DNA from: Kiritimatiellia bacterium
GTDB lineage: Bacteria; Verrucomicrobiota; Kiritimatiellia; SLAD01
NCBI GenBank assembly: GCA_007134735.1
Contig: SLKG01000065.1
Coordinates: 1-38,025, forward strand
Direction: 5' to 3'
Length of the DNA stretch: 38,025 bases
In this document: positions 438-35,189 of the stretch, piece after piece
Position numbering within the stretch: the first letter of the stretch is position 1
How the letters are laid out: the number at the start of each line of letters is the position of its first letter
Translations under genes and position numbers: made by a program
The notes under the pieces: generated by a model
Told to the model about the DNA's origin: nothing
Databases searched by the model: none
The model's input: the letters and a program-made list of their open reading frames with translations, nothing else

Positions 438-1457
438 ATGGACTTCACACCACAGATTGCTCCGGGCACGCCTGTTCTGGTTACCGGCGCCACCGGTTTC
501 ACCGGGTCGCTCCTGGTGCGCCGCCTGGTCGAGGCGGGTGTGCGGGTACGCGCATTGGCCCGTCCCTCCTCCTCGACGGAACACCTGAAGGATCTCGAGA
601 TTGAGTGGTTCACGGGCCACATCTACGAACCGGACACGGTCAACGCCGCGGTGGACGGCACGGCCTATATTTTTCATCTGGCCGCCGTGTATCGCCAGAC
701 CAACATACCCGATGAATTGTTTCACCGCATTCATGTGGAGGGTACGAAATGCGTGGCGGAAGCCGCGCGCCGCAACACCGCGCTGCAGCGGCTCGTGCAC
801 GTTTCCACCATAGGGGTGCACGGTCATGTCCGAAACCCTCCCGCCGATGAACAGGCGCCGTTCAATCCCGACGATCGGTACCAGGCCACCAAGGCGGAGG
901 CGGAACAGTGGGTGCGTGCCTATGCCACCGAACATGGGGTGCCCCATACCATCCTGCGTCCGTGCGCCATTTACGGCCCAGGCGATACGCGATTGCTCAA
1001 GGTCTTCCGCATGGCCTCCCGCCGGTATTGCCCGATTCTCGGACAACGCGATTGCCATTATCACCTGATCCACGTCGAAGATCTCGTCCGGGTCATCCTT
1101 TTGGCTGCCACCCGGCCGGCTGCCCTGAACGAAGTGTTCATCGCGGGCAATCCAGAATCCGTGACCATGGAGCGCATGATCCGGATCATTGCCGGGGCCC
1201 TGAATCATTCGGTGCGCATCATCCGGCTGCCGGCCTGGCCGTTCTTCGCCGTTGCGGTGGTCTGCGAAACCGTGTGCCGGCCGCTTGGGATCGAACCGCC
1301 CATCCATCGCCGGCGCGTGGCGTTCTATACAAAAACGCGGGATTTTGACACCCGGAAGCTGCGCCATACGCTCCAATACGAGATGCAATACACCAACGAG
1401 GAAGGACTCGCGGAAACCGCCCGCTGGTATGCGGACCACGGCATGCTCCGCGTGTGA
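438..1457 (+). CDS. NAD-dependent epimerase/dehydratase (extended SDR family)
   Basis: This 339-aa protein starts with a Rossmann strand and the nucleotide-binding motif TGATGFTG near residue 16. The catalytic region has a Ser-Thr pair in HVSTIGVHG and a YQATK motif, the Tyr-x-x-x-Lys pair of extended short-chain dehydrogenases. Family members epimerise, dehydrate or reduce nucleotide sugars, or act on sterol-like and polyketide substrates. The C-terminal segment ending in a WYADHG-type helix is usual for the family. ATG 438 follows the methyltransferase stop by one base. It resembles the SDR at 12229 closely, sharing the GVHG-V-NPP segment before the catalytic Tyr and a RRR segment near the C-terminus, so the two are probably paralogues. 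A nucleotide-sugar substrate is inferred from the neighbours. Confidence 0.87.
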   Translation: MDFTPQIAPGTPVLVTGATGFTGSLLVRRLVEAGVRVRALARPSSSTEHLKDLEIEWFTGHIYEPDTVNAAVDGTAYIFHLAAVYRQTNIPDELFHRIHVEGTKCVAEAARRNTALQRLVHVSTIGVHGHVRNPPADEQAPFNPDDRYQATKAEAEQWVRAYATEHGVPHTILRPCAIYGPGDTRLLKVFRMASRRYCPILGQRDCHYHLIHVEDLVRVILLAATRPAALNEVFIAGNPESVTMERMIRIIAGALNHSVRIIRLPAWPFFAVAVVCETVCRPLGIEPPIHRRRVAFYTKTRDFDTRKLRHTLQYEMQYTNEEGLAETARWYADHGMLRV

Positions 1458-1464
1458 CGTGACA

Positions 1465-4008: not shown

Positions 4009-4048
4009 CCGGCGTATACACGGCGCCCCGCCCAATAAAGGCCACGAC

Positions 4049-16904: not shown

Positions 16905-17777
16905 TCAGACCTTCGGTTTCCTCCTCCAGGCACACGCGATACGTCCCGCTCCTATCCGATGGAGCGCCACGCGGCCTTCGCCGGGCAAACGACGGATAAA
17001 CTCCGCGCTGATCCGCACGATCCGCTCGGGTGAATCCCCCGGCTTGTTGGCCCGGCGGCGCGGCAGGGTCCCCCACCAGAAGGAGGCATAACCCAGTTCC
17101 CGGCCTGTACGAACGGCTGAATCGGTTCCCCGGTACATGGGGAATGCCAGGTGGGCCACGCGCTTGTTCAGCTGCGATTCCAGTTCCTGCTTTGCGCGGG
17201 CCAGATCATCCCTCACCGTGCCGGCATCGGACCGCTGTATGGCGTGAAGGTACCGGGAATCGATGCCCACCAAATCCAGGGGCTCCGGCCAGTTCGGAAT
17301 ATACCGGTGCGACCAGGTGTGCGCCTGCACGTCCACATGGCCCGATCGCTCCATTTCCCGCAATTCATCCCAGGTGCAGGGGCGCGCATGGTCCGGCCCG
17401 TCATGGGCATCACGATGAAACGCCGGAGCAACGAAGGCCACGGCGTGAAAACCGTATCTCTTCAGGGCCGGATACATCACGGAATACAGGTCGCATGCCC
17501 CGTCATCCACGGTCAGGACCACGGTGCGGTTTTTCGGATGTATGCCCTCGCGCAGATGCCGCATCAATTCGGCAATCGACCAGGATTGGTATCCGTTCTC
17601 TTTTAAAAAATACAGATCCGCTTCCACGGTTTCGGGATCGGCCGCGTGATAGCAAAATACCGGGATGCCGTCGGGAAGACCTTCCGGGTTCCGTCCGAAT
17701 ACAAACGACGGAAATCCCTGGCGAAACAAGGCGTCCAGGTCGGGCTGGTTCTTTCTCCATGAAAGACGAAGATTCAC
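16905..17777 (-). CDS. Polysaccharide deacetylase (NodB-like, CE4)
   Basis: This 290-aa protein has the CE4 metal-site motif VLTVDDG (Asp91, Asp92) and a second motif HTWSH (His153, His157), the D-D and H-x3-H ligands of NodB-family deacetylases. No signal peptide is evident at the N-terminus (MNLRLSWRKNQ), so it may act in the cytoplasm on a precursor or through another route. The C-terminal segment is basic. Its ATG overlaps the stop of the upstream GT4 (ATGA at 17774-17777), so it is the last gene of the minus-strand operon. N-deacetylation of an amino sugar in the glycan is the most likely reaction. Similar proteins also occur next to sugar deaminases and acyltransferases. Confidence 0.88.
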   Translation of the reverse strand: MNLRLSWRKNQPDLDALFRQGFPSFVFGRNPEGLPDGIPVFCYHAADPETVEADLYFLKENGYQSWSIAELMRHLREGIHPKNRTVVLTVDDGACDLYSVMYPALKRYGFHAVAFVAPAFHRDAHDGPDHARPCTWDELREMERSGHVDVQAHTWSHRYIPNWPEPLDLVGIDSRYLHAIQRSDAGTVRDDLARAKQELESQLNKRVAHLAFPMYRGTDSAVRTGRELGYASFWWGTLPRRRANKPGDSPERIVRISAEFIRRLPGEGRVALHRIGAGRIACAWRRKPKV

Positions 17778-18961
17778 GACAACGCCCCCGCAGGCCGGTC
17801 AAACGTCCCGTCCAACAGCGACGCATATATGGACATCAATTCCAAAACGTGCGACTCGACCGAATATTTCTTTGCATGTTGTCTCCCGTTCTCCGCCAAG
17901 CCTCCGGCTACAGCCCGATCCGAGAGCAACCGTTCCAGTTGGCCCAGCAAGTGCGAATAATCACCGGGCGGGGAGAGGAATCCGGTTTCTCCATCCCGAA
18001 TAATTTCGGGCAGGCCCCCGACTGCGAAGGCCGCCACGGGACACCCGGCGGCCATGGCTTCCAGCGCCGTGTACCCCAGACCCTCGCGCAACGAGGGGAT
18101 AACCACGGCATCGGCCGCGGCCAATACAGCCGGCACATCCTCGCGGTAACCCGCAAATCGAACCTGGTCGTCCAACCCCAGTGATTTCACCCGTTCCTGC
18201 AGTGATGTACGCAAAGGCCCGTCGCCCACGATTAACAGGCAAATGTCCGGCCTGGCCTTCAGCCAGTCCGCGCCGGCGCACAGCAGGGAGTCATGCCCCT
18301 TTTCCGGGGACAGCCGCCCGATGACGGCCACACCGCGCTGGTGCTCGTCGATATCAAGCGATGCGCGCACGGCTCGCACGGCATCGGGCGGCGGCGCGGC
18401 AAAGCGTTCGGGGGGCAAGGCATTATACAGCACGCGAACGCGTGTACGGGGAATACGCATCGTCTCCACCGCATATTCGCATACGGCTTTCGATATGCCC
18501 ACACACCCATCCGTCCATCGGGCAAAAACGCGTTGCAGGGTTTTGGTCACCGGGTCCAACGGATTGGTATCGTGTATATGGGCCAGAAAACGGGCGCCGG
18601 TACGGTGCGCGGCCATGCGGCCGAGTAAAATGCCCTTCATCCCGGCGCCGTGAACCAGATTGATGTCCTGTTCCCGAATCAATCGAGCCAGGTCTCCCAG
18701 CGCACGCACATCCCATTTCCCTCGATTCAGGAAGATGGACTCAATGCCCTCCGCTTCAAGACGCTCAGCCGCTGGATGGCGATCCCGAAGAAAACACACC
18801 GTTAAAGGCATCCCGGTCTTCTTCAGCGCCGGCAGGACATTCAAAAAGTAGGTGGTCGCCCCATGAATCACACCTTCCGCATAACCAAGATGGTCGCTGA
18901 CAAAGAGGACGCGGGGTTGATCGCTATTGTTGCCTTTCCGGCTGGAACGTTGAATCATCAT
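17774..18961 (-). CDS. Glycosyltransferase family 4 (GT-B)
   Basis: The protein begins PRVLFVSDHLGYAEGVIHGATTYFLNVL, a typical GT4 N-terminal strand and glycine loop. The donor domain has the E-x7-E-type segment SLREGLGYTALEAMAAGCPVAAF and a GLPEIIRDGETGFL stretch. I place the start at ATG 18961 (396 aa). In-frame starts at 18958, 18982, 19009 (ATG) and 19027 (TTG) also exist, and none has a convincing ribosome-binding site, so the N-terminus is uncertain. It is the penultimate gene of the minus-strand block and is coupled to the deacetylase. The 142-bp gap from the CMP-sugar synthetase holds an inverted repeat (see 19032-19077). Donor sugar unknown. Confidence 0.9.
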   Translation of the reverse strand: MMIQRSSRKGNNSDQPRVLFVSDHLGYAEGVIHGATTYFLNVLPALKKTGMPLTVCFLRDRHPAAERLEAEGIESIFLNRGKWDVRALGDLARLIREQDINLVHGAGMKGILLGRMAAHRTGARFLAHIHDTNPLDPVTKTLQRVFARWTDGCVGISKAVCEYAVETMRIPRTRVRVLYNALPPERFAAPPPDAVRAVRASLDIDEHQRGVAVIGRLSPEKGHDSLLCAGADWLKARPDICLLIVGDGPLRTSLQERVKSLGLDDQVRFAGYREDVPAVLAAADAVVIPSLREGLGYTALEAMAAGCPVAAFAVGGLPEIIRDGETGFLSPPGDYSHLLGQLERLLSDRAVAGGLAENGRQHAKKYSVESHVLELMSIYASLLDGTFDRPAGALS

Positions 18962-19031
18962 AAGATGGAACCATCGATGCATCGAAACCACGGGGAGATA
19001 GAAAGCCATAAGGGCGCACCAGGGCAATCAT

Positions 19032-19103: not shown

Positions 19104-19796
19104 TCAGGACTTGAACGCACGCATCAGGGCCTCGTGGAGTATCCAGTCGTCCGGTTCATCGATTTCAAAGGCGCGCCAGATCGGTATGCGATACACGCCG
19201 GTGCGTCCGCAGAAGCGGTACCGCTCGCGCCGGAACGCCTCGCATTGCAGCGCATATACCGCACTGGTCTCCAACACCTCTTGTGGACGCTTCTGGCGCA
19301 TGCCGCGCTGTCTTTCGTCATGATTGACCCCGCGCCACACACCGTTTTCATCCTGAGTCCATATCCATCGCTGGAAATCAGCGGCCGTCATGACCGATTC
19401 ATGCGACCCGTTCATAACCATCGCCAATGCGCCGTCAACATCACCGGGTTCCACCAGGGGCGAGGTACAATGGAGCACCGCAAGGTGATCGGGTTTGACC
19501 CCCGTGCGCCCCAATTCCTGCAGCGCATGCCACAGCGTCTCCTCCAGCGTCGACTGCGGCCCCGCCAGATCCACGGGACGGCGAATCACTTCCGCGGCGC
19601 CCTGGCGGGCGATATCCGCAATCTCGTCATCGTCCGTGGTTACAAAGACGCGATTAACGAGGCGGGCGGCTCGCGCCGCTTCAACAGCCCAGAGCAGGAG
19701 CGGTTTTCCCGCGAGCGGCTTGACATTTTTTCGTGGAATACCGACCGACCCGCCACGGGCGGGGATAATGGCAATGCATTCACTGGATCCTGTCAT
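19104..19796 (-). CDS. Cytidylyltransferase, CMP-N-acetylneuraminate/nonulosonate synthetase-like
   Basis: The 230-aa protein starts IAIIPARGGSVGIPRKNVKP, the nucleotide-binding signature of CMP-sialic acid and CMP-pseudaminate/legionaminate synthetases (NeuA/PseF/LegF), with AGKPLLLWAVEAA and FVTTDDDEIA following. HCTSPLVEPGDVDGAL and a short C-terminal domain EIDEPDDW are also family-typical. It activates a nine-carbon sugar with CTP, and the NeuB-like synthase at 26592 in the same operon supplies the sugar. The ATG overlaps the stop of a flippase 3' remnant immediately upstream, showing that the gene was originally coupled to a flippase. Sugar type (sialic, legionaminic or pseudaminic) cannot be told from the sequence. 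Confidence 0.9.
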   Translation of the reverse strand: MTGSSECIAIIPARGGSVGIPRKNVKPLAGKPLLLWAVEAARAARLVNRVFVTTDDDEIADIARQGAAEVIRRPVDLAGPQSTLEETLWHALQELGRTGVKPDHLAVLHCTSPLVEPGDVDGALAMVMNGSHESVMTAADFQRWIWTQDENGVWRGVNHDERQRGMRQKRPQEVLETSAVYALQCEAFRRERYRFCGRTGVYRIPIWRAFEIDEPDDWILHEALMRAFKS

Positions 19797-19866
19797 ACGA
19801 TTTCCTTTCGCTCCGATTCCGGCCGCACAGCGTAGTACAGAATGCCGCCGTTGACAAGAAGGGCCC
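19793..19866 (-). pseudogene. Remnant of a flippase 3' end, coupled to the CMP-sugar synthetase
   Basis: On the minus strand, upstream of the cytidylyltransferase ATG, a frame reads LLVNGGILYYAVRP (from 19861) and then eight more codons to TGA 19795-19793, which overlaps ATG 19796. The same peptide, LLVNGGILYYALRP, is the C-terminus of the complete flippase at 24015. No start codon or further flippase similarity lies upstream of the remnant. It therefore looks like a leftover C-terminus from a flippase gene that was displaced when the intervening segment came in. Confidence 0.75.
19816..19863. repeat. Direct repeat, distal copy (46/48 identical to 24017-24064)
   Basis: The 48-bp stretch differs from 24017-24064 only at 19828 and 19859. 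It corresponds to the last codons of the flippase gene, just before its stop codon, and borders the segment that carries the 1308-aa membrane protein. Similarity stops abruptly on both sides. Confidence 0.9.
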
Positions 19867-19906
19867 TCGTCTCTGTAATCCGAAAATCATCAGGGCGGCA
19901 CGCTAG

Positions 19907-22900
19907 TCATGGCGCCGGAGCAAGATCCACACGATGCACCATAATCCCCAACAAACGGCCGTCACGGCTATCGCTCACCAAAGCGGGCGACCACGGATTA
20001 CATTGAATCTCCAGTTCGTGGATACCGGTTCCCCATTCCTCCGGGGGCACGGTCGCCTCCCAGACGCGAAACGGCGGAAATTCGGACTCCCCCCTGTCGA
20101 CGCCGCTCAACGGCTGACCGTTCAGCCGGAAGTTGAGCCGGGCATCCCGCGCCTGTTTAGGGCGCGCATCGAAGTAGGTCACCCGCAAGCGCACGGAATC
20201 CGTGCCGGAAGGCTCAAAGAGTCGGAGAACCGATCGTTCCGAGGTCCAGCGAAAGGGAATGACATCATAATAGCGCTCGCGCCCGAAAAATCCCTCTCCG
20301 ATGAAGGGTTCGTCGTCCGTCGCGCCCACGGTAATCGTGCGGGGCACATCTCGCAGGATGGATCTCAAGCGTAACGCACTCAATTCGACCGGTCGCGCGC
20401 CCGATCGGCCAGGGTCCGCCCATTGCAGGGTTGCGAAAACGTCACGCGACGGCGCGGGAATCATCCATGCCGCGCCATGCACACCGTGCTCGACATAGGT
20501 CACGTGAGCAACGGTTTGCCCGTCCACCTGTACGAGCACCGGTGAATCCGTTTCGCCCGCATCGTCGCGACGCCATCGCAATTCCGCAAGAACCCCATAG
20601 GTATCGGCCGGCCAGATGGCGGGGACGCGTACGCGCCAATCCCCGCTCACGGTGACCGCCGTCCAAGGCGCCTCGCCCATGCTCCGGGAGGGGGCGTCCA
20701 GCAGATCCGTATGCGGAAGCTCGGCCAACGGTGAAACGGGCATGCCGATTGACTCGTCGACCGGAAGGACCGCGGCATGTAATTGCGCGGGAAGCGGTCC
20801 GTCCGATTCCAATTCGACAACCATTTCGTCACCCGAACGATTCCTCCGCATATGGATATAATGAAATCCGTTGGTCAACCGGTCGGACACGATTTCTCCG
20901 TCCACAACGAGCCGGGCAAACGTACGGGATAATCCGGGGCGCCATAAGCACCGGGTATCCGCCCTCAAGAGGAAGGTCTCTTCACCCGGAGCAGGCAATG
21001 TCGTTCGCGTGTGTTGGGTGGTCCAGGGTATCACGCGTAGAAACGGGGCTTCCCCTTCAATATCATACAGGCGGGTGATCAGGCGCAGGACCCCGTCCTG
21101 CCGGCCCTCCGGAGGAGCGGCATCCAGGGCATGTACCGCGCGGCCCTCCGCAAGCCAATCGGAAATCATCCGGGCAATACGTGTACAGCCGTCGGGGCCG
21201 TCATTCCAAACGGCATGCAACGAGACGGGATGGCCTCCGCCGTAGGCTGTCCAGATGCCGGCATAATAGCCATCCGCCAGGACCACATCGTTTTCCGGTA
21301 ATGTCGCGGCCCATTCTTGAAGACGCGCCTTTTCCCCATACCCGATCCAGGGTTGATGCGACCAGCCGTGTTTCATCCACCGATCGTGAGGCGCCTCACG
21401 CCAGGACCATCCGACAACAGCCGGCACATCACGCGCTTGCGGCATCGGCGCCGGTTTTTCTTCTACCAGGAATTCCATGCCGTGCAGAACCAGGGCAGGA
21501 CCTTCTTCCCCCAACTTCAGAGCGCGGGCATCGAAATACAGTTCCCCCGGGAACGACCACTTGAGTTCCTGCATGTAATCACTGATATGAGGATAGGTAT
21601 CCGTGGAATAGGTCTGGTTATAGAGGACCGTCAGCGGGATGAGATCACGTTCCCCTTGCCGATACGTAAGCCGGTGTATGACATCCAGCTCGTCCTGCGT
21701 ATCCGCGGCGGCGGAATAGTACAGGCGCAGCACGCCGTGATGGCGGTCTTCGCCCACCAGGTTCGGCGGACGTATCCGCGAATCCGGCCGCAGGTATATC
21801 CACGGAATGGATTGATGACGGCGGCTGAAGGCCGCGAAATCTCTCCACCACATTCGATATCCCGTCCAACGCAGCGCAACCCGGTCGAGATGTTGCAAAC
21901 GGGACGGCAATTTCGGATAATCGGAAAAATGCACGCGGATCGGTTCCGCGCCGTGCCAGGCCGCCTCGACCAGGGAAGGCAGCGGCCGGTCGCTCTGCAT
22001 CTCCAACCCCTCCGGTCTCGTGGTCAAATCACGGGGCATCATCAGTACATTGGCGCCGGGCCGCAAAGTCACCGGCCAGGGCCGCGGCCAGGACGCGTGC
22101 CGCAGAAGCACATCCTGCTTCGTGCCGGATGGACGGGTGTCGCGCATGAAGAGAAACAGCCGGTCCGGCGCTTCCGACTCCATGGCGACATCGAAGGCAA
22201 GCGCGCGCGCATCGCGTTCTTTCACGTGATAAAGTCTAACCCCATCGTGCCCCAGCGATTGAAAACGAAGCGCGGGGCCGAGCGGATCCAGGGCGTATCG
22301 ATTGAGAAGGGCGTCCAGAACCCATCCACGATCGTCCTGGTCCGGATACGATGCGAGTGTGGACATCCATAGCGGTGTTTGTTCGGGCAGGACGATGGTA
22401 GAGGGATCGGTCGCGGCCGCGCCGCGCGGTGTGAGCGTCCATTGATTCTGCACACCGCCAAAATAGAGACTCCATGTCAACAACCCGGGAGAAAGGATCA
22501 ACAGGGCGCCGTCGCCGGGCAGATACGTCTGCGTCCAGGATGCAAACCGTTGCGCATCCTCCCACTCCGCCGAAGCGGCGCTCCAATTCGGGCCGGACCG
22601 CAGGGCGGCCGCCCCCACTCCGACGGCCAGCAAGATCGTCATCGCCGCGCGCAAGAGGCGCGTTGCCGCAACGCGTCCATGGAGCAGTCCGCGAATCAGG
22701 GCCTCGAGAAGCCAACCCGCGCCCAGGGCCCCGATCGCCGTCGTGAACAGTACGATGATGAGGGAGTAACGGCCCACCACGGCGCCGTAACAGCCGTAGA
22801 AAAGAGCAAAGACCGCCGCGCCGGCGATCAGCGGCAACAGATGAAAGGCTTTCCTTCCAGCCTGGAATATCCATCCGGCGACACCGACGAGGCAGAGTAC

Positions 22901-23833
22901 GGATATCCACACGGGATAGACATGCCAGATCTGATACCGCAAGCGGGGCATCATCATGGGTAGATTTGCAGGATGCCATCCTCTACGGATCCGCCCCGGC
23001 TCCCCATCCACGGCATCACGGATAAACAGGCTATCGGCTTGAGGAACATGGGCGATGTGACGCCCTTCGAAAAGGTTCTGAGCGGCCAACAGGGCGACCC
23101 CGAGCGACAGGCCGGCGCCCAACCACAACAAGAAGGACACGCGGCGACGGAATGTGCCCCAGGTACCCGTGCACAACACCACGAGCGCGGCGGGCACAAA
23201 AAACAGGTAGCCCGGCAGCCGGACCCAGCCGCTTAAGCCGATCAGCAGTCCCGCCCAAAACACCCAGGCCGCGCGGCGTTTCGCGAGCGATTCGCCCGCC
23301 CACAGAACCAGCAACGCGCCGAACCCCAGCGTGTGTGACAGGGTGTCGCGAAACGGCAACGCCAATTCCCAGACGCGACCTGCCATCGTGGAGAAATGGA
23401 GCAGCAACAACAGACCCGCCAGCGCCGCCCATTCACGCCGGTGCGGTCGCCCATCCATCAGGGCGATGCACAGCGCAATGAACAGGAGCAGGAACGGCAG
23501 GAGCACCGCATTGACCAGGAAAGGGGCGCGATCCCCCATCTCACGCGCCAGAAGCAGCAGAACAGGGAAACCACCTTCGATGATGCTTACGTGACGGATC
23601 TCTTCGGGCGGAACGCCGTCTCGGCGCTGGGCCCATGCCTCGCGGTTGGCGGGAATGTATTCCCGGTCCAGGGTCACGTACGCGCGAAGTATGATCCCGG
23701 GATCACCGGTAAGCCAGTACCGGTGATGGCCCATACTCGTCCACAGCAGCACACCGAATACGATCAGAACCCATGCCGAACGCCCTGCGCGACGACCGGC
23801 CCCTTCGGTCTTATGGAAACAAGGACTCCTCAT
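19907..23833 (-). CDS. Very large GT-C-like polytopic membrane protein with long extracytoplasmic tail
   Basis: ATG 23833 gives 1308 residues; in-frame ATG 23863 and GTG 23902 are alternatives, none with a clear ribosome-binding site. Residues about 20-430 hold around eleven hydrophobic helices, with an acidic first loop (LTGDPGIILRAYVTLDREY) and a conserved FRDTLSH loop, the style of GT39/GT83 dolichol-phosphate-mannose-type transferases. The remaining 880 or so residues are outside the membrane. The last 340 are clearly related to the C-terminus of the 888-aa protein at 32523, sharing RTFAR, FRWTSER, a PWSP element and a final R-LGIM segment. The gene lies inside the segment flanked by the 48-bp direct repeats, between the flippase and its displaced tail. 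Transfer of a sugar from a polyprenyl carrier on the periplasmic face is inferred; no catalytic residue is proven. Confidence 0.82.
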   Translation of the reverse strand: MRSPCFHKTEGAGRRAGRSAWVLIVFGVLLWTSMGHHRYWLTGDPGIILRAYVTLDREYIPANREAWAQRRDGVPPEEIRHVSIIEGGFPVLLLLAREMGDRAPFLVNAVLLPFLLLFIALCIALMDGRPHRREWAALAGLLLLLHFSTMAGRVWELALPFRDTLSHTLGFGALLVLWAGESLAKRRAAWVFWAGLLIGLSGWVRLPGYLFFVPAALVVLCTGTWGTFRRRVSFLLWLGAGLSLGVALLAAQNLFEGRHIAHVPQADSLFIRDAVDGEPGRIRRGWHPANLPMMMPRLRYQIWHVYPVWISVLCLVGVAGWIFQAGRKAFHLLPLIAGAAVFALFYGCYGAVVGRYSLIIVLFTTAIGALGAGWLLEALIRGLLHGRVAATRLLRAAMTILLAVGVGAAALRSGPNWSAASAEWEDAQRFASWTQTYLPGDGALLILSPGLLTWSLYFGGVQNQWTLTPRGAAATDPSTIVLPEQTPLWMSTLASYPDQDDRGWVLDALLNRYALDPLGPALRFQSLGHDGVRLYHVKERDARALAFDVAMESEAPDRLFLFMRDTRPSGTKQDVLLRHASWPRPWPVTLRPGANVLMMPRDLTTRPEGLEMQSDRPLPSLVEAAWHGAEPIRVHFSDYPKLPSRLQHLDRVALRWTGYRMWWRDFAAFSRRHQSIPWIYLRPDSRIRPPNLVGEDRHHGVLRLYYSAAADTQDELDVIHRLTYRQGERDLIPLTVLYNQTYSTDTYPHISDYMQELKWSFPGELYFDARALKLGEEGPALVLHGMEFLVEEKPAPMPQARDVPAVVGWSWREAPHDRWMKHGWSHQPWIGYGEKARLQEWAATLPENDVVLADGYYAGIWTAYGGGHPVSLHAVWNDGPDGCTRIARMISDWLAEGRAVHALDAAPPEGRQDGVLRLITRLYDIEGEAPFLRVIPWTTQHTRTTLPAPGEETFLLRADTRCLWRPGLSRTFARLVVDGEIVSDRLTNGFHYIHMRRNRSGDEMVVELESDGPLPAQLHAAVLPVDESIGMPVSPLAELPHTDLLDAPSRSMGEAPWTAVTVSGDWRVRVPAIWPADTYGVLAELRWRRDDAGETDSPVLVQVDGQTVAHVTYVEHGVHGAAWMIPAPSRDVFATLQWADPGRSGARPVELSALRLRSILRDVPRTITVGATDDEPFIGEGFFGRERYYDVIPFRWTSERSVLRLFEPSGTDSVRLRVTYFDARPKQARDARLNFRLNGQPLSGVDRGESEFPPFRVWEATVPPEEWGTGIHELEIQCNPWSPALVSDSRDGRLLGIMVHRVDLAPAP

Positions 23834-24014
23834 TGTGTTGTCTGCCCGGCATCTCAACACCATTATGCAGGTTGGCAAGGGGGTACGCAGCGAATGACGC
23901 ACGGGGAAGGTCCGCCCTTTTCGCCCTGTCCGCTTCCAGCCTGACGCGGTTCAATAAGGCATGAGGCCATTTTCTTGTCACAACATACATTACCCGCATG
24001 GCATCGTGCGGACA

Positions 24015-25280
24015 TCATTCCGGCCGCAGAGCGTAGTACAGAATGCCGCCGTTGACAAGCAGGGTGCTGGTTGCCGCGCCGGCGACCAGCCCCCACGCAA
24101 ACGATTCCAGCGTGCCGTACCGCGCGAACAAGAAAAAACTGACCGCCGCCTGGACGAGCAGGCCCGCGATCAGCATGGCACTCAAGGTTTTCTGGCGGCC
24201 TATGGTCACATAGAATATGTTGGTGCCCAATACGGATATCAGCGCACCGCTGATCAACGCGATCCGGCCCGCGGGAACACCGGGGAGGTATTCGGGAAGC
24301 AACCATCGGGTCACGGGTTCCATCAGAAACCAGGCGATCACGATGCACGGAAGGAGAATCAGCAGCAAGGGGAGCAGGCTTTGCAGGGTGGTCCGCGCCA
24401 CCTTCCGCGGATTTCGAGTGCTCCCATAGACGCGGCCCAGAGCCGGAATCAATACACGGCTGATGGCATACTGAAAGATGCGCATCAGGCCGATCACGCT
24501 GATGGCCAGAACATAATAGCCCAGCGAGCGATCATCCATGAGAAAGGCAATCAGCGTACGATCCAGTCCGAAGGAGAGCAGCAGGAGGAAACGTGAAAAC
24601 AGAATGGGTAACCCATCGCGCACGAGAATCCGGGCGGTGGGTCCGTTCCAAGCGGGCCGATAAAAGGCTCGTGCCCGAACGATGCATATCACGGCGGGCA
24701 ACAGCGCCACAAGAAGCGTACGCAAGGTCAAACCCGGCGTCCCCCCCCATGCCAGTGGCAAAAAAACCCACCAGAGAACGCCCTCAAGGAAGAACAGGCG
24801 ATTGAGCTGGCTCAACCGGTTCTCCGCGGTGAACACCGCGCTCGCGTAATTCATGAAGAGCGTAATACCCGATAGCGTTCCCGCGCAAAGCAGTTTCCAC
24901 GCGAGGACACGCGATGCCTCGTCCTGGAACAGCAGGAGCCAGGCGGCCGCACCCAACAGCACACAGGTAGCCACGGACAACAGGCACACCATCGACGCAA
25001 CGCCCCACACATGCTGAACCTCGGCGCCTCGATCCTGCGCGCGCCGTATGGGAACCAACCGCTCCGCGCCGTTGAACACGCCGCCCGTGAACCAGAGCGC
25101 GTACATGGAAAAAATGCCGATCCACGCCACGAATCCAATGGCCTCCGGACCGGCAATGCGCGCGGCGATCAATGAGGCCGCTATGCGCAGAAACAGGCCG
25201 GCCCCACGCGCACTCATAAGGGAAAACAGGGAACGCGTCAACGCGCTCGGGGAATCCACGGAAACGGGGGGCGCACTCAC
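24015..25280 (-). CDS. wzx: Oligosaccharide flippase (Wzx-like, MOP superfamily)
   Basis: I use GTG 25280, which overlaps the stop of the upstream pyruvyl transferase as GTGA and gives 421 residues, the normal Wzx length. Longer in-frame extensions only cover antisense-of-other-frame sequence in the neighbour. The protein has about twelve hydrophobic helices, starting SLMSARGAGLFLRIAASLIA and including FVAWIGIFSMYALWF, and ends LLVNGGILYYALRPE. Wzx proteins flip undecaprenyl-linked repeat units across the inner membrane. It is the third gene of an operon with NeuB-like and pyruvyl-transferase genes. The 3' end (24017-24064) is duplicated 4.2 kb downstream, and here it stops right at the repeat border, whereas the remnant copy runs eight codons past the repeat. 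Confidence 0.88.
   Translation of the reverse strand: MSAPPVSVDSPSALTRSLFSLMSARGAGLFLRIAASLIAARIAGPEAIGFVAWIGIFSMYALWFTGGVFNGAERLVPIRRAQDRGAEVQHVWGVASMVCLLSVATCVLLGAAAWLLLFQDEASRVLAWKLLCAGTLSGITLFMNYASAVFTAENRLSQLNRLFFLEGVLWWVFLPLAWGGTPGLTLRTLLVALLPAVICIVRARAFYRPAWNGPTARILVRDGLPILFSRFLLLLSFGLDRTLIAFLMDDRSLGYYVLAISVIGLMRIFQYAISRVLIPALGRVYGSTRNPRKVARTTLQSLLPLLLILLPCIVIAWFLMEPVTRWLLPEYLPGVPAGRIALISGALISVLGTNIFYVTIGRQKTLSAMLIAGLLVQAAVSFFLFARYGTLESFAWGLVAGAATSTLLVNGGILYYALRPE
24017..24064. repeat. Direct repeat, proximal copy (flippase 3' end)
   Basis: This is the last coding part of the complete flippase gene and matches 19816-19863 at 46 of 48 positions (offset 4201). The repeat ends within the stop codon, consistent with an insertion or duplication junction there. 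Confidence 0.9.
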
Positions 25281-26554
25281 CGTACCCCGCTCGTTCCCGC
25301 CGGTGTGACAACCGACGGCCCTCCGGCCGGCTCCCGCACCAGTCGCTCCCGAACCATCTCGCCCATGCGTCGCACACGGGTTCGTAATTCGCCGGACCGC
25401 TCCTTCACACGCACGCGCAGCGCCTTGCCGCCATCCATCGCATGGCGCGCCTCGCGTTCGATGGATTCGACAGCGCCCCACAGATCCGTCGGATCGAAGG
25501 GCGTGGGCATCACGTCCCCCATCAACTCCGACAGCCCCTGCACCTTGGGCGACGTGCTGATCAAGGGAACGGAGGGGCAACCGACGTTCGAGGCCATGAT
25601 AAGGTGGTGATAGCGGCCGGAAAACAGGAAGCGCGCGTCGCGCAGAATCGTCATGACATCCCGGAAGGACTGGTCCTGCCCGAAGAACAGCGATCCGGTA
25701 TCCTCCGCAACCGCGCGCAGAAACTGATCCTCCGGATCCTTGGCCATCAACACCGCCTGTGGCACAAGTTGCTTGAGCCGATGGATCACATGATGCAGGG
25801 AGGATTGATCCCGGGTACGCCTGAAATCCATCGGCAGCATCGAAAGGCTGAAGCAGAAGTAGGGCCGGTCGCCCACCCGGGCGCGGAACGCTTCAAGTCC
25901 CGGGCCGGCCGGCGAGCACTCCGATTCGTCGAACAAAAATACGGCGTCGGGAACCAGTTCGGCGCGCGCGTCCGGGACCGCCTGTTGGACCATGCGCAGC
26001 GCGTTGGGTACGCGCACCGTAATTCCGTCCAAAACGCGGAACACCTTGCGCACCATGGCCGGGAGGATGGGGTCCACCTCGGTCAGTGTGACATTGCCGT
26101 TCAGAAAGAATGCAGGCTTATTGAAACGGGTTTTCGCGAGCCAGAGCATGAACAGACATTTAAGGGCCGAGTGATTGTTCCGGTATGTGCTGCCCTCGGC
26201 ATTGAAAACTACCGCATCGGCGTCTCCAACCCGGTCCAGAAAATCCCGGGCACCCGATCCGCCCTTTCCCGCCATCCACTGTTCCGCCACATACTCATAT
26301 TCATCGACCACTTCCGGCAACAGGTGGTAGCGGGATGTGATCCGGTCGGCCAGGAAACTGGTCCGGTTGAATGCGCGCCGCCCGAACACCCACGGATCCC
26401 ACCGATAGATTCGCCCCACCCACCGTGAATCCAGCGACGTGTACGTCACGCCGGGAAGGGCTTCCGTCAGGATGGTTTTCAATGCCTCGATGTTCGCCAG
26501 CGAACCCCAATTGGAATGATCGGATGTGTCGTTCAGAATGAAAACGTTAGGCAT
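25277..26554 (-). CDS. Polysaccharide pyruvyl transferase family protein (CsaB/WcaK-like)
   Basis: ATG 26554, preceded by an AAAGAAAG-type purine stretch, gives 425 residues. The N-terminal strand VFILNDTSDHSNWGSLANIEA has the glycine-rich turn of the family. AVVFNAEGSTYRNN follows in the first half. The C-terminal domain carries ARFLFSGRYHHLIMASNVGC with PLISTSPKVQGL, the conserved R-H-H and K segments of PS_pyruv_trans proteins that use phosphoenolpyruvate to form ketals on sugar residues. The C-terminal 60 residues are basic and helical. Co-location with NeuB-like and CMP-nonulosonate genes is notable, as some family members act on other substrates; the exact acceptor is unknown. The stop overlaps the flippase GTG. 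Confidence 0.88.
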   Translation of the reverse strand: MPNVFILNDTSDHSNWGSLANIEALKTILTEALPGVTYTSLDSRWVGRIYRWDPWVFGRRAFNRTSFLADRITSRYHLLPEVVDEYEYVAEQWMAGKGGSGARDFLDRVGDADAVVFNAEGSTYRNNHSALKCLFMLWLAKTRFNKPAFFLNGNVTLTEVDPILPAMVRKVFRVLDGITVRVPNALRMVQQAVPDARAELVPDAVFLFDESECSPAGPGLEAFRARVGDRPYFCFSLSMLPMDFRRTRDQSSLHHVIHRLKQLVPQAVLMAKDPEDQFLRAVAEDTGSLFFGQDQSFRDVMTILRDARFLFSGRYHHLIMASNVGCPSVPLISTSPKVQGLSELMGDVMPTPFDPTDLWGAVESIEREARHAMDGGKALRVRVKERSGELRTRVRRMGEMVRERLVREPAGGPSVVTPAGTSGVR

Positions 26555-26591
26555 AAATCGTTCTTTCTTTATTTGCGCCGCGTCATGATCT

Positions 26592-27470
26592 CTAGTAGCC
26601 GCGGAATTTCCTGCGGTTCTCCAGCTCGGACGGCAGAGGCGCCTTGTCCGGACGGCCCAACGCCTTGAAGAAATTACGTGATCGGCGCACCAATAAGGCC
26701 ATGCCCTCCGGCTCCGCCGAGGCCGCATGGTCCGGTCCTTTCATGGTCCGGTCAAGGGTGAAATGCCGTTCGATGACGCACGCACCCATGAGAACCGCAC
26801 CCGGAGAGATGGACACCCCCCGCTCGTGCCCGGAGAATCCGACAAGACAATCATAGCGCTCTTGCAGCATGGGAATCACCCGGAAATGGATATCCTCAAA
26901 CTCGGTCGGATAGGCCGAGGTGGCCTGCAAAAGCACAAAATTTTCCGTGTGTTTCCGGATCCGTTCGATTGCCTGATCGATCTCCTCCAGAGACGACATG
27001 CCGCAGGAAATCAAGATCGGCTTGCCGGTTTGGCAGACGCGTTCTATCAGCGCGGAATCCGTCAGGTGAAAGGACGAGATTTTGTACAGCGGCACATTCA
27101 GCCGTTCCAACATGTCCACCGACACGACATCGAAGGGCGTGGAAAAAAAGATGAGTCCCAGGCTTTCTGAAAGATCACGCAACTCACGCATCTGCTCCTC
27201 GGTCAGTTCCAACGCATACTTGTGTTCACGATATGTGGCGCCGAATGAGTTGGGGCCCGTATACGGCTTGTCGAGCAAGTCTTTCGGAAAGGCCGTTTCG
27301 ATATTCTTGGACTGAAACTTTACGGCATCCACGCCCGCTTCTGCCGCCTTGCGAAGCAGTTCGCGGGCAATGTCCATGTCTCCATTGTGGTTGTTGCCGA
27401 TCTCGGCAATGATAAACGGCCATTCGCCGTCTCCGATCGCCCGGTGAGGGGTCACCTGTATCTTCTTCAT
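26592..27470 (-). CDS. neuB: N-acetylneuraminate/nonulosonate synthase-like (NeuB TIM barrel, lacking SAF domain)
   Basis: ATG 27470 has an AGGA site about 8 bases upstream and gives 292 residues. The barrel carries PFIIAEIGNNHNGDMDIA at the N-terminus, then DAVKFQSKNIETAF, ISCGMSSLEEID and LVGFSGHERGVSISPGAVLMG with VIERHFTLDRTMKGPDHAAS. These match the active-site segments of NeuB/LegI/PseI enzymes, which condense PEP with a six-carbon N-acyl sugar. Standard NeuB proteins have about 340-350 residues with a C-terminal antifreeze-like SAF domain that closes the active site. Here the sequence ends at ENRRKFRGY, where that domain would begin, with a stop codon and then the next gene 37 bp later. 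It is the first gene of the minus-strand operon and faces a divergent GT4. Confidence 0.9.
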   Translation of the reverse strand: MKKIQVTPHRAIGDGEWPFIIAEIGNNHNGDMDIARELLRKAAEAGVDAVKFQSKNIETAFPKDLLDKPYTGPNSFGATYREHKYALELTEEQMRELRDLSESLGLIFFSTPFDVVSVDMLERLNVPLYKISSFHLTDSALIERVCQTGKPILISCGMSSLEEIDQAIERIRKHTENFVLLQATSAYPTEFEDIHFRVIPMLQERYDCLVGFSGHERGVSISPGAVLMGACVIERHFTLDRTMKGPDHAASAEPEGMALLVRRSRNFFKALGRPDKAPLPSELENRRKFRGY

Positions 27471-27655
27471 ATCGTGTCCTGCCCCCGGCATCTCATTTGG
27501 CCGGTTCGTTGGTCGGAATCCCGTTGTACCGCACAGGGGTGCGCCGCCCTGGCGGATGTGCATGGTTGAATGCGACTGTACCAGACCCGCGCCGCAACAA
27601 ACCAGTCCAAAACCGCTGAATTCCTTCCACCACCCGGTCGTTCCGGAATGAAAGG

Positions 27656-27683
27656 TCGACCGCACCGGAAACACCGTTATAAT
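27656..27683 (+). promoter_or_regulatory. Possible promoter with perfect TATAAT -10
   Basis: TATAAT at 27678-27683 is a perfect -10. TCGACC at 27656-27661 (four of six consensus bases) lies 16 bp upstream. Transcription would start about 27690, next to ATG 27691. The alternative ATG 27682 overlaps the -10 itself and is unlikely to be used. Confidence 0.45.
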
Positions 27684-27690
27684 GCCTCCC

Positions 27691-28842
27691 ATGTCCAAAG
27701 CCCTGATGTTGTCCTACTGGAACGTGAACGATCCCGCGTTTGGCGGGGGGCGACGCATCAACGCACTAATAGACGCTCTCGCGGGCCGCGTGCTGTTGTG
27801 TCAGCCCGGCGCTCCCCACGATGCCTGCGAAACCGCCGTGTACAAAACGGATTTCGGAAGGCGGAAACGCGGAATCAACTGGGGCATGTTCAATTTCTTC
27901 TGGCCGGCGAACGCCGCATGCGTCGGGCGTCTCGTAACCGAACGTGCTCCCCCGGTCATCATCATGACCTCCATGTGGAATTATCATCCCCTGCGCCGCG
28001 TCATCGAAACACCGATCGTTTTGGACGCGCACGACGTCAATGCCGTCGCCGTGGGAGAGCGCATGGGTGTTCGTCATCCCTTCACGCGCATGGTCCGGTC
28101 GTGGGAAGCCCGGGTGGTCCGTGCCGTCGATCACCTGTTTGCCTGCTCGGAGCGGGACCGCGAGCAATTCATAGCGCTCTACGATCTCCCGCCGGAACGC
28201 GTGACGGTCGTACCCAACGGCGTCTACGTCACGCGGCATGAACCGCCGGCCGTCGGGACCGACGACCGGTTGCCGGACGATCTCGAGCGATCACTAAAGG
28301 ACGCCACCGTGCTCATGTTCATGGGTAAACTGGACTACCAACCAAACGTCGAAGCGCTGACGTTTCTAAACGAAAAGGTCATGCCGGCGCTGGAACAAAT
28401 CCGCCCGAACGGCTTTCGGCTCCTCGTGTGCGGAGGCCCCAGGCCGGACCGGATGCTTCATCCCTCCGTGATCCCGGCCGGCGTCCTGTCCACCGCCCGC
28501 TTGATGGCCGCCCTGCGGCGGGCGGATATATGCCTCGCGCCGATCTCGTCGGGTTCCGGAACGCGCTTGAAGATACTGGAATACATGGCCTCCGCGAAAC
28601 CGGTCGTCACCACGGCCAAGGGCGCGGAGGGCATCGATGCGCAGCCGGATCGCGATTGGATCGTCGCGGACCCATCCGAGTTTGCGGAGCGCATTGTCGA
28701 CCTGACTCATCACCCCGAACGCGCCGCCCGGATGGGAGCCGCGGCGCGAGTATTCGTAACACAACGGTACGACTGGAAGACCCGTATAGCGCCCCGCTGG
28801 CAAAGGGTGCTGGCGCAATGGATGCCCCCCGTTGCCGTGTAA
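27691..28842 (+). CDS. Glycosyltransferase family 4 (GT-B)
   Basis: ATG 27691 gives 383 residues; ATG 27682 is also in frame but lies in the putative -10 box. The N-terminal strand ALMLSYWNVNDPAFGGGRRINALIDAL has the glycine-rich loop of GT4 proteins. VVPNGVYV, LMFMGKLDYQPNVEAL and the donor-site segment APISSGSGTRLKILEYMASAKPVV follow in order; the G-T-R-K-E pattern marks the retaining GT4 active site. The gene starts 220 bp from the divergent NeuB-like gene and is followed after 41 bp by a GT2. Its donor and acceptor are unknown; chain extension of the surface glycan is the likely role. Confidence 0.9.
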   Translation: MSKALMLSYWNVNDPAFGGGRRINALIDALAGRVLLCQPGAPHDACETAVYKTDFGRRKRGINWGMFNFFWPANAACVGRLVTERAPPVIIMTSMWNYHPLRRVIETPIVLDAHDVNAVAVGERMGVRHPFTRMVRSWEARVVRAVDHLFACSERDREQFIALYDLPPERVTVVPNGVYVTRHEPPAVGTDDRLPDDLERSLKDATVLMFMGKLDYQPNVEALTFLNEKVMPALEQIRPNGFRLLVCGGPRPDRMLHPSVIPAGVLSTARLMAALRRADICLAPISSGSGTRLKILEYMASAKPVVTTAKGAEGIDAQPDRDWIVADPSEFAERIVDLTHHPERAARMGAAARVFVTQRYDWKTRIAPRWQRVLAQWMPPVAV

Positions 28843-31077: not shown

Positions 31078-32526
31078 ATGAAAATGCCCTTTACCATCAT
31101 CAACAGCGGCCTCGCGGAACGTCATTTCCATACCGCACTGGCTCGTGAACTATCAAAACGCGGTCATCCCGTGCATGCCGTGGTCCTGGGCTCCCGCTAT
31201 GCGAATATGTACCGGACGACGAACTGTTACGAGGAGGTAACGGACCTTTCAGAATGGATGCGGGATCACTGGGAAACGGACCGCCATGTCCTGCTGGATC
31301 GAGCGCGGGCGATTGACGAGCAGTACGCGCCGCCGGGCCTGTGGCAGATGCTGGCCGCCGACCGCCGCATCCGTCGACGCGACCACGACTTCAATCTGCG
31401 TGCCGCTTGCGCGCAGGTCGCATTTTGGGAACAGCACTTTGACACGATAGCGCCGGGACTGGTCATCGGCGAAGTCAGCCACCTGCACAACTATATCCCC
31501 TGGGCGGTCGGCCGCCGATACGGCATTCCGTTCGCGCATTTAATCGCCGCGCGTATCCGTGGGCATACGGCCATCGGAGACGGCCCGATGGAGCATAAAA
31601 ACACGGTCGCGACCCACTACGAACGCTTTCGCCATGAAGGCACGCCGGAAGATCTTCAGCGCAAGGCCGAGGAGTACATCGCCGGTTGCCGCGCGCAGGC
31701 ACAACGCGCGCCGCACATCCCGCCCGTAAAGAAGTGGTATCAGGACCCCGTCGACATCGGTTCGGTGCCGGGCCTGTTGCAGGGGCTCAAGACATGGTAT
31801 TCATGGGAACGCAAGTACAATTATTTCCTGACCGCCCCGACCGCAAAGATTGGAACCTGGTGCCGACAAAAGGCCCTGCGCAGTTGGATGACCGTCACGC
31901 GACGCTATTTCGATGATATCCAGGGCATGACGGACCCGTTTGTGTTGTTTGCCCTGCACCTGCAACCCGAATCGTCCACGATGGTGCGCGGTCAATGCTT
32001 TCAGGACATGCTGTCCGTGGTGCGCAACTTCGCGCTGAGCCTGCCGGCCGGGTACCGGCTGTATGTAAAGGAGCACGACGTGATGTTCGGTCAGCGTCCG
32101 CTCGCATTCTTTCACGAACTGAAACACATGCCCAACGTGGTCCGCGTATCGCCCTATGAAAGCGGGCCGGACCTCGTACGCCGTTCCTCGGCGGTGGCCG
32201 CCATCACGGGCACGACCGCCTGGGAGGCCGCCATGCTCGGCAAACCGGTGGTCATGCTGGGGCATTCCTTTTTCGACATGTACCGGGGGATCGACCGAAT
32301 CACCGACCCGACCGGGCTTCCCGATGTGTTTCGCGAACGATTGCGACACTTTGAACACGACGAACAGGACCTGGTAACATTTGTCGCCGCCGTCTTTGCG
32401 TCCATCGTACCGGCCAGCATGGACGACCTGCGGGGCTTGCGCAGTCCGGACGATGTGGAAGGCGCCGGCGCGCTGGCCAAAGCCCTGATCGAGCGCGCGA
32501 CCGAAAACAGTGGAACCACCCCATGA
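31078..32526 (+). CDS. Capsule polysaccharide synthesis family protein (KpsS/LipB-like)
   Basis: I place the start at ATG 31078 (482 aa); GTG 31063 and ATG 31084 are alternatives. The second half carries FVLFALHLQPESSTMVRG, a RLYVKEHDVMFGQR segment, NVVRVSPYESGPDLVRRSS and ITGTTAWEAAMLGKPVVMLG. These are the hallmark stretches of the Capsule_synth (PF05159-type) GT-B proteins, such as KpsS and KpsC, that build the Kdo linker on lipid. The first 240 or so residues are less recognisable. No other kps genes are seen here, so a different sugar donor is possible. Its TGA overlaps the ATG of the following GT-C-like protein, coupling transfer to membrane assembly. Confidence 0.85.
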   Translation: MKMPFTIINSGLAERHFHTALARELSKRGHPVHAVVLGSRYANMYRTTNCYEEVTDLSEWMRDHWETDRHVLLDRARAIDEQYAPPGLWQMLAADRRIRRRDHDFNLRAACAQVAFWEQHFDTIAPGLVIGEVSHLHNYIPWAVGRRYGIPFAHLIAARIRGHTAIGDGPMEHKNTVATHYERFRHEGTPEDLQRKAEEYIAGCRAQAQRAPHIPPVKKWYQDPVDIGSVPGLLQGLKTWYSWERKYNYFLTAPTAKIGTWCRQKALRSWMTVTRRYFDDIQGMTDPFVLFALHLQPESSTMVRGQCFQDMLSVVRNFALSLPAGYRLYVKEHDVMFGQRPLAFFHELKHMPNVVRVSPYESGPDLVRRSSAVAAITGTTAWEAAMLGKPVVMLGHSFFDMYRGIDRITDPTGLPDVFRERLRHFEHDEQDLVTFVAAVFASIVPASMDDLRGLRSPDDVEGAGALAKALIERATENSGTTP

Positions 32527-35189
32527 ACCCGTCCGCGCAGACCGAACGGCCCGCGTCACCCGCGCCGAATGCGAAGGGTATGTGGAGTCTGCTGATCGCC
32601 GGAAGCCTGTTCCTTACCGCCCTCTTTATCTGGACGGCATGGCAGCATTTCTCGATTCGATCCTTTTCCGACCCGTATAATTATCTGATGGTTGCGCGGG
32701 ATCTGGTGAACGAGTTCCGCTCCAGCCGTTGGCCGGCCGCCTATCCCGCGTATCTCTGGCTCGCGTTGAGAGTCGTCGGACCGTACCATGTGTTCCTGGC
32801 CAACGTGCCCCTGGTTGCGTTGCTGTTGGGCCTGACGGGCACGGTGACCGCCCTTGCCGTTCGGCGCGAGCCCGGCCCGCGCGTCGCCGAAGCGGGGCTC
32901 ATCGGATTAGGCGCAGTCAGTCTATTGATCGTGTTCGATCCAGACGTCCTGATGATCCTGGCCGATCCTTATCGCGATCCGCTTTCTCATGTGTTTCTTT
33001 CATGCGCCGCGCTGTTTCTTCTTCTTTTCCTCGGCACACCGGAAGCGCGGATGCGGTGGATCGGAGTCTCCGGATTGATGTTGGGGCTGGCGGCGAGCGT
33101 GCGGGAACCCGCGATCCTGTTCGCGGGGCCGATGGTACTGACGGCGCTAATGGTCCGGCGCCATGGCGGGCGTTTCCCCCTGCGGCCCGCGGCGTTATGG
33201 TTCGCCGCCGGCACCGCCATCGGCCTGTTGCCGATCCTGGCCCAGATGTACCTGGCCACCGGTCAAGTCCTGGTCCCGCCTCAGGCGGTACAGGAAGAAA
33301 CCCTCTTTCCGGGGTTCGTCCCCGCCCGGGCAGGAACCAATATGCGGCGCGCACTGACGTACTACGCACTTCAAAGCAAATGGATGGCGCCCGCCGCCTT
33401 CCTCACGGGCATCGGTTTTGCCCTGGCGCGCCGCAATCGTTTGCTCCTCTTGCTGTTCGCAACGACGGCGCTCCTGTACGCCGTGCTCTACACGCATTAT
33501 CGCATGTTTGTCCCGCGGTATTTCTTTATTACCACGCTCTGGGCCGCCCCGATCGCCGCATACGGCCTGTACCATGCGGCGGACTCCATCCTGCGCCTCG
33601 CTCGCCGATCCCGCTGGCGGCCGGTCGCATGGACGGGACTGACCTGCCTGTTAATGGCATGGGCGGGCATGCGTATGCTCGAGCTTGAGGCACCGGCCAT
33701 CCGTTTTCTCCCCGAACATGCCCGCACCTTCAAGAAGGATATCGAAGAACATGTGCCGCCGGGCGCATTTGTCGTGAGCCCGCGCAATCTGTGCGAAGTC
33801 ATCGGCTACTTCACGCACGCGGATTCATGGCGCGCCTGGGCCATGCTGTACCCCGATTTTCGATCGGATGCGCCGGTGTATGAACGATTTCGCTCCATGC
33901 TGGATGAAAACCGACCGCTGTATCTAATGGAACTGGATTCCCCCGGCGCCAGCAATCCGGACATGATCATCTTTCGCCGCTATTTCGATCTGGAGCCCAT
34001 CGCCACATTCGACAGCGCGCGGTATAATCTCCAGCCTATCGCCGGACCGGGCTCGATGACCCTCCACCATGTCCGCCCCTGGACATCGAATACCGCGTAC
34101 GTCGCCCTGGGCCCTGTTTCCGCCGATTCCACCCTGCAATGGGATGTCGGGCGATTGTGGCGGGATGACATGCCCCGCACGTTTGCAAGGGTGTATCTGA
34201 ACAATGAGCCGCTCGGCGAAGTCCGGCACAACGACATTCAGTATTTCCGTCTCCCCGAAACGGAGGACGCGCATCTGGAGTTGCGATCGGACGCACCGGT
34301 TCCGCAATCGCCGTCCCCCGCCGTCCTCGCGGGCCACCAACCGATTCACCTCGACTTCGGCCTGCTGAGCGCCTCCAGCCATGACGCCTTCCTGTCCGAC
34401 TCCATCCTGGAGGAACCGGTCCATCGCGGCTACGTCCGGATATGGGGCGGAGAGGGCCGTATACGCCTGCCACCGCTCTGGACACCCGAAATGCGGGTGA
34501 TGGGCCGGCTGGCCGTTCGGGCAACCCGCGCAGATGAAATCATTCCCGTATCACTGGAATTCCATCTACCGGACGCCCCCGCACAAACCGTTACCTTCCA
34601 CGCATCGCGCCGCTTCGACTTGATCCCCATCCTCCTCCCCGGCGGGTTTAAGGAAGAGCAACACATCGGCATGCGTATCATCGGCGAGGAAACGCTCGAA
34701 CTGAATTTTCTCACGCTGTTCCCGCACGTACCCGCCCGCGCGTTTCACATTGATATCGGAACGGAAGAGGACGATCCGCATCTGCTCGAAGGATTCTATC
34801 ACCGGGAACGGCATCATCGGCAAATTCCCGTACGCTGGACTTCGGAGCGGGCGTCCTTGTTCTTCCATGTCGACCAGGTGGACATCGACATGATCGTCAC
34901 ACTCGGTTACGTGGACATCCCGCGTCCCGCCGATGCGCCCCCGCCGAACCTGCAACTTCATTTCAACGGCACGGAACTGGACCCGGCCACGTACGACTAC
35001 GACACCACCAAGCGGGGCGTCCGTCTCAAGGCGGTCGTCCCCCACGAACAGGTCCGGCACGGCGAGAACCGGCTCGATATCGTCGTCGAACCGTGGTCTC
35101 CCCTGGCCTACGGTGTGAGCCGGGATTCCCGGCAACTCGGCATCATGTTGGACACCGTCAAATTACAGTGCCTCCGCTTGACCCCATGA
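32523..35189 (+). CDS. Large GT-C-like polytopic membrane protein with extracytoplasmic C-terminal domains
   Basis: The 888-aa protein starts at ATG 32523, overlapping the KpsS-like stop. Residues about 18-390 form ten or more hydrophobic helices, with an early SDPYNYLMVARDLV loop and a YRDPLSHVF loop that mirror the 1308-aa protein at 19907 (FRDTLSH), plus VREPAILFAGP after it. Residues about 400-550 are soluble. The last 340 residues are homologous to the C-terminus of the 1308-aa protein, with RTFAR, VRWTSER, PWSP and R-LGIM landmarks; the final module (about residues 755-888) is beta-rich. The fold suggests a periplasmic-facing polyprenyl-sugar-dependent transferase with glycan-binding tails. 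Its stop overlaps the next gene's ATG. Confidence 0.83.
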   Translation: MNPSAQTERPASPAPNAKGMWSLLIAGSLFLTALFIWTAWQHFSIRSFSDPYNYLMVARDLVNEFRSSRWPAAYPAYLWLALRVVGPYHVFLANVPLVALLLGLTGTVTALAVRREPGPRVAEAGLIGLGAVSLLIVFDPDVLMILADPYRDPLSHVFLSCAALFLLLFLGTPEARMRWIGVSGLMLGLAASVREPAILFAGPMVLTALMVRRHGGRFPLRPAALWFAAGTAIGLLPILAQMYLATGQVLVPPQAVQEETLFPGFVPARAGTNMRRALTYYALQSKWMAPAAFLTGIGFALARRNRLLLLLFATTALLYAVLYTHYRMFVPRYFFITTLWAAPIAAYGLYHAADSILRLARRSRWRPVAWTGLTCLLMAWAGMRMLELEAPAIRFLPEHARTFKKDIEEHVPPGAFVVSPRNLCEVIGYFTHADSWRAWAMLYPDFRSDAPVYERFRSMLDENRPLYLMELDSPGASNPDMIIFRRYFDLEPIATFDSARYNLQPIAGPGSMTLHHVRPWTSNTAYVALGPVSADSTLQWDVGRLWRDDMPRTFARVYLNNEPLGEVRHNDIQYFRLPETEDAHLELRSDAPVPQSPSPAVLAGHQPIHLDFGLLSASSHDAFLSDSILEEPVHRGYVRIWGGEGRIRLPPLWTPEMRVMGRLAVRATRADEIIPVSLEFHLPDAPAQTVTFHASRRFDLIPILLPGGFKEEQHIGMRIIGEETLELNFLTLFPHVPARAFHIDIGTEEDDPHLLEGFYHRERHHRQIPVRWTSERASLFFHVDQVDIDMIVTLGYVDIPRPADAPPPNLQLHFNGTELDPATYDYDTTKRGVRLKAVVPHEQVRHGENRLDIVVEPWSPLAYGVSRDSRQLGIMLDTVKLQCLRLTP

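Follow-up and report, generated by a model that had tools for sequence, protein, structure and literature searches.

Organization of the locus

The window, that is, the whole stretch of 38,025 nucleotides analyzed here, carries a gene cluster on its minus strand in the order NeuB (27698-26592), polysaccharide pyruvyl transferase (25277-26590), flippase (24015-25280), a giant gene designated GTC (19907-23833), a scar, CMP-nonulosonate-type synthetase (19104-19796), glycosyltransferase family 4 (GT4; 17774-19027) and polysaccharide deacetylase (16905-17777). The flippase was assigned to Polysacc_synt_3 (PF13440, 3e-11) and has about 421 residues when read from a GTG at 25280 to the TGA at 24017-24015. 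The synthetase was assigned to CTP_transf_3, and its closest NCBIfam family was PseF, below the cut-off of that family. As judged from the predicted genes (NeuB, the PseF-like synthetase below the cut-off, flippase and GT4), the pathway context points to a probable nonulosonic-acid-type surface glycan.

The flippase and the synthetase are separated by a segment of 4153 bp (19864-24016, minus strand) that is occupied largely by GTC, which encodes a polytopic protein of 1308 amino acids with a large soluble C-terminal part. Its ATG at 23833 matched the start of the homologues, and the longest possible open reading frame (1331 amino acids) would begin at a GTG at 23902. No match was found in Pfam or PDB, and an AlphaFold2 model of residues 1-520 (pLDDT 44) was too poor for a fold search. 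The N-terminal third is hydrophobic, and an Asp (in the motif LTGDPG) is conserved in most homologues; on these grounds the product may be described as GT-C-like. The putative glycosyltransferases LA_3751/LA_3752 (NF047440) gave a weak match to the N-terminal region of GTC (E 0.02), but the score (13.7 bits, cut-off 200) means that GTC is not a member of this family, and GTC adds a large C-terminal part. The GTC product probably belongs to the pathway of its neighbors, which would make a nonulosonic-acid-type surface glycan. A second GTC-like gene, encoding 888 amino acids with 28-30% identity and belonging to no Pfam family, is located at 32523-35189 on the plus strand.

A direct repeat of the flippase end

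The segment is bounded by two copies of a 48-bp direct repeat (19816-19863 and 24017-24064, both read on the minus strand), which are identical at 46 of 48 positions, as the earlier note had reported. When the comparison was extended to 19870 and 24071, 50 of 55 positions were identical; the 5' border of the duplication is uncertain (position 19863 or about 19870), and the flippase 3' end is accordingly repeated over 48-55 bp. The longest exact repeat of the whole window (30 bp) sits within the 48-bp repeat, which was also recovered in a blastn self-comparison (E = 4e-16), whereas in 200 shuffles of the scar region no ungapped 48-bp match to the flippase end exceeded 27/48. Only these two copies were found in the genome. 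Seams as readable as this one were infrequent: a scan of about 320 kb of related loci turned up just one further short repeat present in two copies, namely an unrelated, intergenic 43-bp direct repeat with 91% identity (L088, 137-179 and 2018-2060) that lies beside toxin-antitoxin-like open reading frames.

The upstream copy forms the final codons of the intact flippase gene. In the sense direction it ends in CCCTGCTTGTCAACGGCGGCATTCTGTACTACGCTCTGCGGCCGGAAT, the next bases being GATGTCC, which gives the flippase stop GAA TGA; the intact frame thus closes at 24015, and its product terminates in LLVNGGILYYALRPE. In the downstream copy, CCCTTCTTGTCAACGGCGGCATTCTGTACTACGCTGTGCGGCCGGAAT is followed by CGGAGCGAAAGGAAATCGTATGACAGG, and the frame continues as AVRPESERKEIV up to a stop, so that its translation ends in LLVNGGILYYAVRPESERKEIV. 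The remainder of this tail (19793-19815, minus strand) encodes SERKEIV and carries an AAAGGA ribosome-binding site immediately 5' of the synthetase ATG, and its TGA lies within the ATGA with which the synthetase starts. Since AAAGGA is placed just upstream of the ATG, the synthetase start region is inside the relic. The synthetase start is now located 110 bp past the GTC stop.

Coupled flippase and synthetase genes in relatives

If the segment had entered between two coupled genes, relatives may be expected to show them joined. Two metagenome-assembled genomes carried such a junction, one found by a class-wide search (G009, contig C86, locus L043) and a second by a scan of the genome collection (G058, locus L023). 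The former, which belongs to the same family and another genus, shares the flippase (67% identity), synthetase (62%), GT4 (47%) and deacetylase (60%) in the order of the window, and its flippase and synthetase overlap by ATGA; it should be noted that this is a 3-kb contig carrying only the last 119 amino acids of the flippase. In the latter, NeuB, flippase (62%) and synthetase (59%) were identified, and the flippase TAA overlaps the synthetase ATG in ATGAGTAA. Neither genome has a gene between flippase and synthetase, and in both the flippase C-terminus is of the longer form. The segment is thus absent from the corresponding junction of both relatives, which supports the proposal that the two genes were once directly coupled. 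Moreover, the place of the second repeat copy is flippase coding sequence in both relatives, and so this copy is not an unrelated leader.

The same junction can be recreated from the window. Joining the flippase body in silico to the downstream copy produced the tail YYAVRPESERKEIV, with the TGA inside the ATGA of the synthetase; the flippase of G009 ends in YYAIGGKTRKETE with the same overlap. At the junction itself, the joined flanks of the window read FAWGLVAGAATSTLLVNGGILYYAVRPESERKEIV compared with FAWGYVAGSLSSVLLVNLSIVYYAIGGKTRKETE in G009, with 11 and 10 residues after YYA, respectively. Thus, flanks joined at one repeat copy restore the junction of the relatives (ATGA overlap and matching tail length), and the shared overlap identifies the downstream copy as the original end of the flippase.

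Among the loci examined, the flippase-synthetase pairing was restricted to the window and these two genomes. Of the 28 other class loci fetched, not one carried this flippase directly upstream of the synthetase, and sampling across the phylum brought to light no additional close flippase. The synthetase frame of G058 (L023, 1728-2923) runs on into a phosphatase-like C-terminal extension (KdsC-like, by eye), which is missing in the proteins of the window and G009; several homologs in the class have similarly long frames.

The two copies also provide information on the age of the event. They agree with each other at 49 of 54 positions, and each agrees with either relative at only 29-32 of 54; in terms of identity, 96% between the copies is opposed to about 55-60% with the relatives. 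The copies are therefore far closer to each other than to the relatives, and the duplication accordingly postdates the split from G009. Of the two differences within the 48 bp, the change CTG to CTT at repeat position 5 is derived in the downstream copy as compared with both relatives, and the change CTG to GTG (Leu to Val) is derived in the downstream copy as compared with G058, G009 being uninformative at this site. Although two changes are few, such a pattern would fit coding constraint on the upstream copy and free drift of the relic.

Distribution and composition of GTC

Homologs of GTC with 27-40% identity were detected in 38 of 346 class genomes. Among those with a readable neighborhood, none has the gene between a flippase and a synthetase, and the order flippase, giant gene, synthetase, whose wide occurrence in relatives would have spoken against an insertion, was not seen elsewhere in the 346 genomes. 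No GTC was detectable in G009, whose genome is about 89% complete. G058 possesses a distant homolog (29-31% identity), which shares the strand of the synthetase and follows it at a distance of about 8 kb. In G008 a different gene lies upstream of GTC, and in G004 GT2 and GT4 genes lie downstream of a GTC C-terminus; such varied neighbors imply that GTC genes occupy varied glycan loci. Within its own genome, GTC has a single other match, a paralog with 28-30% identity, and a second copy of its leader was not found.

The earlier note had proposed a comparison of codon use and GC content between the segment and its flanks. The values for GTC (GC 0.620, GC3s 0.673, synonymous-codon distance z 2.8) are within the range of the neighboring genes, and a foreign origin of the segment was rejected because both GC and codon use are native. 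Neither the GTC frame nor the six other open reading frames of the insert that were scanned encode a transposase, integrase, relaxase or other mobility protein, in agreement with the previous remark that no transposase is visible. Near the insert ends, the best exact inverted match was 8 bp. These findings argue against a transposon or insertion sequence (no transposase, inverted match of at best 8 bp, and a duplication of 48 bp rather than a short one), and the recombinase gene expected inside an integrative element of the tyrosine or serine recombinase type was not found within the segment.

Proposed history of the locus

On the basis of these results, it is very probable that the GTC segment was inserted between formerly coupled flippase and synthetase genes, duplicating the flippase end, after the split from the nearest sampled relatives. 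The ancestral operon would have contained flippase, synthetase, GT4 and deacetylase genes, the first two sharing an ATGA in which the flippase stop and the synthetase start overlap. A 4.15-kb piece bearing GTC would then have been placed between the first two of these genes, and the flippase 3' end would have been duplicated over 48-55 bp. Of the two copies, the upstream one would have remained on the flippase, where a chance TGA closes the frame seven residues early, and the downstream one would have become a headless relic beside the synthetase, still supplying a ribosome-binding site that the synthetase presumably uses. The flippase would consequently have lost seven C-terminal residues as well as the stop-start coupling to the synthetase. 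The earlier note had described a repaired flippase upstream and a scar downstream; the scar was substantiated, whereas the upstream gene appears to have been closed by a new stop rather than repaired.

The opposite direction, in which a once-intervening gene was lost in both relatives and the coupled form is derived, should also be considered, given that the coupled pair was seen in no more than two relatives, one of which is represented by a 3-kb contig. Such a loss would leave the duplicated flippase end unexplained, and we infer that the direction was insertion. An assembly artefact joining two loci through shared sequence is barely credible even for an assembly of 167 contigs, as the copies differ at two positions with at most 30 exact bases in common, which excludes an exact k-mer misjoin, and as the flanking genes (NeuB with flippase on one side; synthetase, GT4 and deacetylase on the other) follow the order of the relatives.

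With regard to the molecular route of the insertion, we make no firm choice. Our first, tentative preference is a one-step insertion with long target duplication through break repair or template switching, in which replication or repair would leave the flippase end, copy the GTC region and rejoin about 50 bp upstream of the point of departure. A single event would yield both the abrupt borders and the near-identical copies, and would account for an insert that has no transposase or integrase and no exact inverted match beyond 8 bp near its ends. The donor copy of GTC was not seen in the genome, however, the 28-30% paralog being the sole other match.

Somewhat less probable is a tandem duplication of a block that began in the flippase end and ran up to a GTC gene located further downstream; deletions would then have removed GTC from the second copy and, from the first, the part on the side of the synthetase. 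The required starting order is found in G058, where the GTC homolog follows the synthetase in the same orientation, whereas the contig of G009 stops too soon to show this region; the native composition would also be explained. Nevertheless, at least three steps are needed, the rest of the window has no residual GTC fragment, and the G058 gene, with its low identity, may not be an ortholog. We found nothing direct in the literature on duplication-loss in bacteria.

A third and rather unlikely route is that a circular DNA integrated through a single crossover at the flippase 3' end, either of the RecA type or catalyzed by an integrase that had this gene end as its attachment site and was later lost. 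Integrative elements often insert at the 3' ends of genes, so that direct repeats lie on either side of the element (PMC4701971), and the anatomy of the locus resembles attL/attR, with direct repeats identical at 46 of 48 positions and an intact flippase frame. On the other hand, mobility genes such as an integrase or relaxase are absent from the segment, a search of plasmids for relatives of GTC gave no match, and the flippase end bears no other cargo in the relatives found. The earlier note offered module exchange by recombination within a shared gene end, which may have been the mechanism. A more far-reaching idea, that surface-glycan cargo repeatedly enters and leaves at the flippase 3' end via the duplicated copy and that recombination between the 48-bp copies precisely restores the coupled form (a reversible glycan switch), appears highly improbable.

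Relation to known systems

The proposed insertion is a well-supported case of ordinary operon remodeling. In the galactose-initiated O-antigen clusters of Salmonella, a partial wzy duplication is present in D3 and wzy remnants are present in D1/B1 (PMC3715488). Both that set and the present locus retain a partly duplicated gene or remnant in a surface-polysaccharide cluster after rearrangement. Several junctions in Salmonella have insertion sequences or H-repeat remnants, whereas none was found at the window locus, and the remnant described here, unlike those of Salmonella, consists of a flippase end in which the start region of the next gene is preserved. In integrative and conjugative or mobilizable elements (ICEs/IMEs), direct repeats derived from gene 3' ends flank the integrated element (PMC4701971). 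The window segment is similar in its site at a gene 3' end, its direct repeats on both sides and the intact gene, but it differs in having no integrase or transfer genes, a single glycan-type gene in operon orientation and a native composition. Operon remodeling by insertion, deletion and rearrangement was described by Price et al. (2006), as cited in PMC5399355; as far as that citation goes, the entry of a new gene between former operon neighbors is of the same kind, and at the present locus the seam is still readable at the base level.

The locus thus provides a base-level record of gene entry between two translationally coupled genes with no visible mobile element. The downstream gene would have kept working because its start region lay in the duplicated end, provided that the ribosome-binding site of the relic is used. 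Reshuffling of polysaccharide operons is already known, and the locus is a clear further example of such an event that leaves the general understanding unchanged. The flanking repeat predicts precise excision.

Other features of the window

In G058, NeuB directly precedes the flippase, whereas in the window the pyruvyl transferase gene is located between them. This may represent a second gene gain in the same operon or a loss in G058; no convincing repeat scar was found around the gene in 25200-27800, where the longest repeat was 18 bp at 83% identity. In addition, two adjacent open reading frames of about 900 amino acids on the plus strand (1252-4008 and 3977-6628), which have no Pfam match, contain DNA repeats with 81-91% identity at a constant spacing (2620) and apparently arose by tandem gene duplication.
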